In this document: one piece after another, positions 12,526 to 14,880 of the stretch | Layout: the number at the start of each line of letters is the position of its first letter | Position numbering within the stretch: the stretch's first letter is position 1 | Assembly (NCBI GenBank): GCA_020081605.1 | Contig: JAHREC010000049.1 | Span: 1,054,001 to 1,118,000 of the forward strand | Source of the DNA: Albifimbria verrucaria | Lineage: Eukaryota > Ascomycota > Sordariomycetes > Hypocreales > Stachybotryaceae | Direction: 5' to 3' | DNA length: 64,000 nucleotides | Translations under genes and position numbers: made by a program | Notes under the pieces: model-generated | Database searches by the model: none | Seen by the model: only the letters and a program-made list of their open reading frames with translations | Told to the model about the DNA's origin: nothing

Positions 12526-14880
12526 ATGGCTGAACCTGTCGGCATCGCGCTTGGAGTGCTGGGCATCTCCGGGCTTCTTAGCGTCTCCCTCGACTGCTTC
12601 AACTTCGTCCAGGATGGCATGTCGCTGGGCAAGGATTTTGCTCACATTGATGGTCAGCTAAGCACTTTAAGAATCCGGCTTTATGCCTGGGGTAAGGCTT
12701 GCGGTTTCTTTAGTGACGAAGGATACGACAAGCGACTTGATAACCCACAATGGAGGTCGCACATCAGGACGCAATTAAGCTGCATCTCACTACTCTTTCT
12801 AGACGCGGAAAAGATTGTGAGCAAGTACAATGTTGCCGGAACCGCAGGCAATCAACGACTGGGCCCTTGATTGCGAATGAGCAGTTTATTAACCAAGGTA
12901 TTCGGGACTATTTAGTCAAAGTCAAGACGACTAAAAAGGACGCTGGATTGACCGGACAATTTCAGTGGGCTTTAGTATACAAGAGACGTATGACTGAGTT
13001 GCTCCAACGTTTGAAGGACTGTGTCGAGGCTTTAGAGCTTGTGTCTAAAGACTTGGACCTCTTTGAGAAGCAGTGCCGAGCTGTCAGGACCGAAATTAGG
13101 ATGATGGATGATATGGAAAGTCTCAGAAACATCGTCACTGTAGGGCCAGGGTCTGATATCGTCTCCGACGCTGCCAGTGAAAGGCTCCTTCAACTTGAGG
13201 GGATACACCGGGAAACGGATACTACTGCGGCTGTCTCCACTCTGTCATTAGAAGGTGGTTCAACAATCGGCACTTATGTCACTGCAGTGGACCTTAGTCC
13301 TAACGAAAGGGACAGCCAGGAAGCTGATGAAGCTGGCGAAAGCGCATCATCTGAGACATGGAATGCACGAAACTTACATGAACTGCTGGACCAAGAAGTA
13401 CTACACGAGAGAATTATCAATATGATGCTTCCGAGGAAACCCAAATTTGACAAGGGCACTCCACAATGCCCATTTGGTGCAATCAGATATCTGGTACCCC
13501 AGATGTTTAGGATGGTTGCGTTCTACGACTTGCGCACTACGCCACTCGCGAATATATCCACAGAAGCATATTTGGGGCCTGGCACGACTCTACAAGGAAT
13601 CAGGCATCGACTCGAGTCGTCTCTTCCAAAACCGAACAAAGTTATGGACGGAGCATTGTCCGAAATGCAGCTAATTGGTGAAGGAGGACAATGGAACTGC
13701 CTACAAGCACTATTTGATAGGTTTCTCCAAGCCCAATTTTGGCCAGACGACGGTTTGGGTATACTGGAAGCTCAACGTGATGCAATCCAGGCACCTTTCA
13801 AACTTTGGGAATACTGCTCTTCGGTATTTCTGTCCCTATACGAGAATGCCTACCAAAGTACTTGGGGCATTTTGAACAGCATGGCGATTATGTAGCCTTC
13901 CATCCTACTAACACCGAGGCTGGAAAAAAATTGTTCATGATTTGGTTACAAGCTTTTGCAACAAACAAGTTAGAGCATACTCTTATCGATGGACCAAACG
14001 ACCAATTGCCCGAGATTATAACCAAGAAAGAGCACTATTTACAAAACGTGGATGCAGCTGAGATGGAAAAACTGCTCACGTGTTTTATGGAAATATTTGC
14101 ATCTGGCTTGTTCGTATCATGGATTACCATTTGTCTTAGACGTCTTGAGAGGAGCATACTGGAGATGAAAGCAAAAGAAGAAACCGTAGAGCAGCAGACA
14201 AGGGTAATGAGTGAGCTGAGCCAGAGCCAAATTGTGACCGTGGCAACTCCACGGCTCGATGATGGTAGATGGGGTTGGGAGCTGGCACAACTGGCCAAAT
14301 CAGACCAGCTTTGGCTGACTGAGAACCCACAATGGCTCACAGGATTTCGATATCATTTTGGGAACACTGGCGGACTACGGCGAGCTTCTAACGAGTTGAG
14401 AGACTTTCTACAGAAACCTGTCGAATGCATCACTATGCGACCCTTAAGCATTGCCCTTGATGGCAAAATCAGCATTCGAGCTTCGTTTGAAGGACCGCCC
14501 CAAAGCTCATACCGAGGAGGAATATTCCACCTACTATTCAAATGTCCCATGAATTACGCTTTCATGCCACCCACTGTTCATTTTCTGACTCGGGTTTATC
14601 ATCCTAATATCGGTTCCGACGGAGAAATCTGCATGGACCTTCTTCAAACCCCGGTTGGTCGCCAGCTCTCACAATCGAAAAGGTTGTCCTATCGGTAATA
14701 TCACTACTCTCGGATCCGAATATTGAAGACCCCTTAGTCCCAGAGATTGCGACCACATTTGTTCTGGATCGACCTCTATATGACAAGAACGCGAGACTGT
14801 ACACAATGAAGTATGCAGGAGGTGATCAGGACTATCCAGATTATGGCGTGGTACCGTTTTCAAGACTTATTTCTTCCTGA
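12526..14880 (+). CDS. HeLo domain fused to a ubiquitin-conjugating enzyme (E2/UBC) domain
   Basis: The N-terminus (residues about 1-220) is a HeLo domain, the membrane-permeabilising cell-death domain of HET-S. It starts MAEPVGIALGVLGISGLLSV with SLDCFNFVQDG, then GKDF, an RIRLYAWGKA helix and FQWALVYKRRMTELLQRLKD. The C-terminal ~170 residues are an E2 fold: SFEGPPQSSYRGGIF, PPTVHFLTRVYHPNIGSDG, then the catalytic Cys codon at 14630-14632, ten residues after the His of HPN, and DPLVPEIAT. Frame breaks lie near 12865 (CCC) and 14652 (CCCC). A further frame change occurs between about 13440 and 13900, where I cannot decide which frame is true. The middle ~350 residues match nothing I recognise. 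Length is about 780 aa. The gene is followed on the same strand by a NACHT receptor. Confidence 0.72.

Follow-up and report, generated by a model that had tools for sequence, protein, structure and literature searches.

A HeLo domain joined to a catalytically conserved ubiquitin-conjugating (E2) domain in predicted fungal proteins, with a possible role in programmed cell death

Could a fungal cell-death domain have been joined, within one protein, to an enzyme of ubiquitin transfer? The question is raised by a gene in a 64,000-nucleotide stretch of the genome of the ascomycete Albifimbria verrucaria (contig JAHREC010000049.1, positions 1,054,001 to 1,118,000; hereinafter, the window), for which a first-pass annotation proposed a HeLo domain at the N-terminus of the product and a ubiquitin-conjugating (E2, or UBC) domain at the C-terminus. 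According to those parts of the literature that were available to us (a scope that applies to all articles cited below), HET-S goes to membranes and exposes a segment at its N-terminus, and HeLo proteins have been proposed to comprise a large pore-forming class (PMC3531502). Fungal HeLo domains are related to the killer domain of MLKL and to domains of plant NOD-like receptors (NLRs) (PMC12881547), and HeLo effectors sit beside or within genes for signal transduction ATPases with numerous domains (STAND) (PMC3321046; PMC12881547).

The reading frame of the gene is broken three times, near 12.85, 13.87 and 14.66 kb, and the four pieces were analysed separately, with the frame left uncorrected. 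Both ends proved to be what the annotation had taken them for. Pieces 12526-12867 (E 3.1e-22) and 12861-13892 (E 2.5e-7) match the HeLo family PF14479 with 79.9 and 31.1 bits, respectively, against a curated cut-off of 23.2, and the first of them also matches solved HET-s/HET-S HeLo chains (2wvn, E 1.7e-10). Pieces 13871-14695 and 14653-14877 match positions 3-88 (E 4.9e-18) and 91-139 (E 3.4e-10) of UQ_con (PF00179). The E2 part has the UBC fold and matches solved UBE2D chains (E 5.5e-19), the UBC4/UBE2D subclass providing the closest solved relatives of the fused E2, and the HPN motif and the catalytic Cys codon are present in the window copy exactly where they had been placed (Table 1).

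That the two domains belong to a single protein is clear from the relatives, which are known as predicted proteins (designated here by P-numbers). Protein searches returned 53 proteins, including ordinary E2s and HeLo proteins without an E2, and precomputed Pfam matches assign both domains to 42 of these. As the candidates scored were capped, 42 is a lower bound for the family; it includes near-copies (P0011/P0012; P0027/P0034/P0035). The closest relatives, P0006 and P0007, of 785 amino acids each and 97% and 84% identical to the middle piece of the window gene, run through unbroken, which shows that the fusion was not created by the breaks in the window copy; a stop between the HeLo and UBC parts, the outcome by which the first-pass annotation would have been overturned, does not occur in either of them. 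When the middle piece alone (343 residues) was the query, all four proteins found carried both Pfam domains. Furthermore, the window pieces are collinear with P0006 over 783 of 785 positions, and the stretch spans 2355 bases, where 785 codons with a stop would take 2358, so that an intron could not be accommodated. Since the relatives carry both domains in single predicted proteins, both a pair of adjacent genes and a chance neighbour were rejected as the source of the arrangement. In the 48.4 Mb genome (41 contigs), where 20 HeLo matches merge into 17 loci, a same-strand E2 match lies just downstream of two of these, whereas 0.012 such matches within 2.5 kb would be expected under a rough assumption of even spread. 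These two are the window and a second HeLo-E2 locus on the minus strand of contig C16, at about 330.7-332.3 kb (C16:330891-332279), which is likewise split into four frame pieces.

The three breaks in each of these copies are the substance of the view that the window locus holds no working fusion but rather a pseudogene in decay or two genes next to each other. We consider this highly improbable, given the unbroken P0006 and P0007, the collinearity with P0006, and the behaviour of a gene for the second-largest subunit of RNA polymerase in the same assembly (C15:5483354-5484483), of which the matched parts, only 41 bases apart, are likewise in different frames, so that assembly errors are the simpler cause. 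The two other matched genes for this subunit show no break in the 1.1 kb that was matched, from which an uneven error rate of the assembly follows. The NACHT-type gene downstream of the window gene is also in pieces, to which introns may contribute. Errors of the assembly are thus the simplest explanation for the frame breaks in the window.

The survey of other fungi that the first-pass annotation had proposed reveals the same fusion in three classes, with named members in Sordariomycetes (Emericellopsis cladophorae, Truncatella angustata, Apiospora arundinis, Gaeumannomyces tritici), Dothideomycetes (Trypethelium subeluteriae, Bogoriella megaspora) and Eurotiomycetes (Elaphomyces granulatus). 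Among the matches listed, P0010 of E. cladophorae (45% identical) is the best named one to share the long layout. In 20 related proteins scanned, PF14479 scores from 58.1 to 171.9 bits; in automatic annotation, the names 'UBC core domain-containing protein' and 'ubiquitin conjugating enzyme Ubc4' are already given to some members.

What might such a protein do? Either of the functions suggested by the first-pass annotation, ubiquitin transfer triggered at membranes or control of a death domain by ubiquitin, would fit the evidence. As predicted from sequence and from models of relatives, the HeLo-E2 polypeptide consists of a HeLo domain, a flexible linker with recurring motifs and an E2 with an intact active site. 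We propose, with a confidence slightly short of an even chance, that it is a HeLo-gated, catalytically competent ubiquitin enzyme of an NLR or heterokaryon-incompatibility death pathway. The HeLo part would self-assemble, or would join the HeLo domains of NLRs or HET-S-like executioners, at the plasma membrane; this clustering would bring the ubiquitin-loaded E2 beside the assembly; and the E2 would then ubiquitylate its HeLo partners or nearby membrane proteins. The architecture is seen in the predicted proteins themselves, whereas the ubiquitin activity and its direction, killing or restraint, are what we infer; we lean slightly towards control of HeLo-driven death as the outcome. Such a mechanism is made plausible by the reports on membrane targeting by HET-S and on the location of HeLo effectors beside or within STAND genes, by the enrichment for ubiquitin-degradation domains among the genes up-regulated during incompatibility in both Podospora and Neurospora (PMC3689799), and by the observation that ubiquitin on the HeLo domain of MLKL sends this protein to endosomes (PMC8816944).

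Variation in the active site is slight. The catalytic Cys is present in all 42 complete fused E2s and the full HPN motif in 41; in the LVPEIA stretch, V120 and P121 are invariant and E122 is retained in 41. A catalytically dead E2, akin to the ubiquitin E2 variants, was rejected on this invariance of the Cys, with the qualification that choosing the proteins by their overall similarity to E2s makes its presence more likely, though it does not force it. By contrast, the residues F62, K63, P95 and A96, which we take to be the standard contacts of E2s with RING and U-box ubiquitin ligases (E3s), are kept in only 21, 8, 30 and 15 of the 42, respectively. By the LVPEIA stretch and the solved structures nearest to them, the fused E2s are of the UBC4/UBE2D type, but as a set they do not retain its standard E3-contact residues. 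With the E3-binding surfaces drifted and the active site conserved, transfer would probably be steered by the HeLo assembly or by a dedicated partner and not by the general E3 set. The same drift could be read differently: the E2 would be an integrated bait, so that a parasite or mycovirus directed against host E2s would strike the fused copy and the HeLo domain would then trigger death. A death domain fused to a housekeeping-type domain, in a genome rich in NLRs with at least 151 matches to the NACHT-type family NPHP3_N (a lower bound, from 150 scored of 287 candidates), fits this idea; nevertheless, the near-invariant catalytic residues indicate a working enzyme, unless the attacker needs the active site, and a bait appears quite unlikely.

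The N-terminus has the features of a membrane-type helix in most of the family. In the window, the HeLo domain starts at residue 1, and the best 19-residue hydropathy, 1.94, begins at residue 4. Among 44 HeLo rows (43 fused proteins and the first window piece), a hydrophobic stretch with hydropathy of at least 1.6 is found in the first 40 residues of 36, while the remainder of the HeLo domain has a median of 0.94; at four other HeLo loci of the A. verrucaria genome, the helix scores from 1.51 to 1.88. In another version, the protein would be mainly a pore-forming executioner like HET-S, which the E2 would brake or time in cis by ubiquitylating its own HeLo domain or linker; in the absence of activation, the resting protein would be cleared. 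This helix, the location of the E2 at the C-terminal trigger position and the MLKL precedent for HeLo ubiquitylation (PMC8816944) speak for this version, whereas the invariant Cys fits it and our preferred reading equally and favours neither; we regard the self-braked executioner as somewhat unlikely. A prion-forming C-terminus was discarded: the Pfam matches of P0006-P0009 at E <= 0.5 include no HET-s amyloid family, and an E2 is there instead.

Between the two domains lie 125-200 amino acids in compact members and 256-443 in the others. Four patterns recur in this linker among the 43 fused proteins: S-x(0,2)-A/S/T-A/S-S-x-R (34 proteins), T/S-F/Y-x-T/S-A (35), Q-N/H/Q-x-R-I/L/V-M (27) and WGxxL/I (27). 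The SDAASxR and TFxTA patterns are both also present in P0017, a HeLo-only protein. A signalling role for TFxTA was considered and dropped, as nothing identifies it as such a motif and it is absent from the 159 residues that follow the HeLo domain of the NLR P0044. The extra middle region of the window gene (~300 residues) yielded no Pfam match above the cut-off, and no paralog of piece 12861-13892 was detected in the genome at E <= 0.001. In a model of full-length P0006, confidence is low at 234-427, and the fold comparison is filled by E2 matches.

The genomic neighbourhood of HeLo genes bears on whether the protein belongs to immunity at all. A listed NPHP3_N match is found no more than 5 kb away from seven of the 17 HeLo loci, against 0.55 to 1.04 such loci expected; those on C11 and C13, less than 0.6 kb from such a match and on the same strand, are probably HeLo-NLR genes. 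In the window, 3.7 kb separate the HeLo match from the downstream NACHT match. If the HeLo domain were a mere membrane or assembly address for an ordinary UBC4-like E2 engaged in membrane protein turnover outside immunity, the UBE2D-like fold and best matches would be readily explained, but the E3-contact residues and linkers vary widely, the HeLo domain is kin to that of the NLR P0044, and HeLo and NACHT genes cluster across the genome, so that this explanation seems unlikely to us.

Pairwise identities in the HeLo and E2 domains correlate (r 0.66; 861 pairs, not independent). In the E2 tree, 26 complete fused proteins fall on one side of a supported branch (98/91); the matching group in the HeLo tree (100/100, 31 rows) comprises those 26 together with P0014, which is truncated, and four proteins in which no E2 was detected. 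The first branch in this group is P0044, an NLR with HeLo, NB-ARC and TPR domains (93/87 for the rest), the HeLo domain of which is 55% identical to that of the relative P0009. Because of the four E2-less members, E2 and NLR partners appear to have been swapped or lost on one HeLo lineage, unless the gene models are incomplete. The E2 of the C16 locus is divergent, lacking the LVPEIA stretch and having Ubc1 as its best match, narrowly before UBE2D, and may represent a separate fusion; the data neither establish nor reject that all fused E2s go back to one origin (approximately unbiased test, p 0.079 with the C16 copy and 0.072 without it).

Several observations weigh against a HeLo-gated ubiquitin enzyme of a death pathway. 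In eight of the 44 rows, the hydropathy of the N-terminal helix is below the threshold; six of these (P0024, P0027, P0032, P0034, P0035, P0042) begin after the helix, by truncation or real loss, and of the others, P0040 scores 1.53 and P0053 looks atypical. P0023 has HAN in place of HPN, and D117 is changed in 6 and D87 in 5 of the 42 E2s. The models do not confidently place the HeLo domain relative to the E2 (pTM 0.49 and 0.41). The E2-less P0016, P0031, P0037 and P0044 belong to the same HeLo clade as the fusions. As for the genome itself, the window copy might fail to yield an intact product, the nearest listed NPHP3_N match is 17 kb away from the C16 copy, and the neighbouring receptor in the window seems to have a hydrolase domain of its own and so need not signal via the HeLo-E2 protein. 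Separately, P0024, P0027, P0034 and P0035 start just past the helix and, if real, would be HeLo-E2 proteins without a membrane-type helix. The HeLo fold does not appear in the structure-comparison lists; these lists are filled by the E2, and its absence is no evidence against a HeLo domain.

Multidomain proteins with a similar plan put the fusion in perspective. BIRC6- and UBE2O-type E2/E3 hybrids, like HeLo-E2, have an E2 domain as part of a bigger protein that directs its own targeting; HeLo-E2 is much smaller and, by Pfam matches, has no flanking domain in common with them. The UBC4/UBE2D enzymes share with it the fold, HPN, the catalytic Cys and the LVPEIA stretch, whereas HeLo-E2 is fused to a HeLo domain and does not conserve the E3-contact residues. 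HET-S of Podospora anserina (with NWD2) has the same N-terminal PF14479 domain and hydrophobic N-terminal helix, and its homologues adjoin STAND genes (PMC3321046), as the window gene does, but its C-terminus is an amyloid prion-forming domain, in place of which HeLo-E2 has the enzyme, preceded by a long linker. The 'all-in-one' HeLo-NLR receptors, such as P0044, contain nucleotide-binding and repeat domains; HeLo-E2 lacks both and has the E2 instead. In MLKL, too, an N-terminal four-helix, HeLo-type domain, which is modified by ubiquitin (PMC8816944), is followed by a C-terminal domain derived from an enzyme; the latter is a pseudokinase, whereas the E2 keeps its active site.

The surmise that no protein of this kind had been described held up in full-text searches of 5.39 million open papers, a scope that leaves aside supplements, subscription papers and preprints. 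'HeLo domain' and 'ubiquitin-conjugating' co-occur in none of these papers, and the numbers PF14479 and PF00179 appear together only in PMC6525431, where the accessible part has them in separate table rows. A HeLo-E2 protein is not mentioned in the accessible parts of PMC8816944, PMC3689799, PMC9815663, PMC12474679, PMC12258605, PMC12881547, PMC3531502, PMC3321046, PMC10197012 and PMC4986451.

Table 1. Features of the HeLo-E2 gene and of its downstream neighbour (positions in the window)
Feature	Position	Strand	Remark
HeLo-E2 gene, start codon (ATG, 12526) to stop (TGA, 14878-14880)	12526..14880	+	frame broken three times in assembly
HeLo domain, first half (PF14479 positions 1-99)	12526..12867	+	Pfam match; hydrophobic, Gly-rich N-terminal helix
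HeLo domain, second half (PF14479 positions 136-204)	12921..13130	+	Pfam match
Linker motif SDAASER	13164..13184	+	pattern in 34/43 fused proteins
Linker motif TYVTA	13272..13286	+	T/S-F/Y-x-T/S-A pattern in 35/43 fused proteins
Extra middle region	13287..14191	+	common to P0006, P0007 and, weakly, P0010; lacking in compact relatives
Motif QQTRVM, preceding E2	14192..14209	+	pattern in 27/43 fused proteins
Motif WGWEL, preceding E2	14270..14284	+	pattern in 27/43 fused proteins
E2 (UBC core) domain, UBC4/UBE2D type	14372..14817	+	
HPN motif of E2	14600..14608	+	
Catalytic Cys codon	14630..14632	+	Cys in 42/42 complete fused E2s of relatives
LVPEIA stretch of window E2	14734-14751		
STAND/NLR-type neighbour gene, in several frame pieces	15312..19359	+	limits guessed from open reading frames
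Hydrolase-like piece of neighbour gene, THSLGG motif	15994-16011		no Pfam match below 0.05
NACHT piece of neighbour gene	16742-17155		NPHP3_N 1.2e-15; NACHT 1.6e-4, below its cut-off
P-loop GKPGSGKST of neighbour gene	16904-16930		

The hydrolase-like piece of the neighbouring gene is presumably SesB-like, and the gene has a weak ankyrin match (Ank_4, 0.0039), below the cut-off of that family. Elsewhere in the genome, a DUF7580 gene (8.2e-14; C16:324218-325654, minus strand) lies ~5 kb from the second HeLo-E2 locus. Three HeLo loci with equal score and profile range (C34:43583, C37:199700, C31:39769) are on small contigs (150-211 kb), and NACHT matches with identical scores are present on C20, C21, C23 and C24; conceivably, all these contigs are duplicated accessory chromosomes. 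The HeLo match at C8:1529169-1529780 contains six in-frame stops (five TGA and one TAG) and might be a decayed copy or contain introns.

In the literature consulted, ubiquitin control of a HeLo-type domain is reported for MLKL alone. With HeLo fused to a catalytically conserved E2 in three fungal classes, mutants of single residues would allow a direct test of how ubiquitin and HeLo-driven death are linked. The E2 is, moreover, an enzyme class that goes unnamed in the surveys of fungal NLRs, as far as their accessible parts extend; the nearest item there is the annotation of a ubiquitin fold (Crinkler), and not of an E2, on NLRs (PMC9815663). A bolder generalization, by which HeLo-E2 proteins would be a widespread class of fungal immune proteins where assembly of a death domain switches on ubiquitin transfer at the membrane without a conventional E3, strikes us as rather doubtful at this stage. 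The presence of unbroken fusions in the predicted proteins of several fungi suggests that tagging with ubiquitin may be an integral part of a pathway of cell death in fungi.
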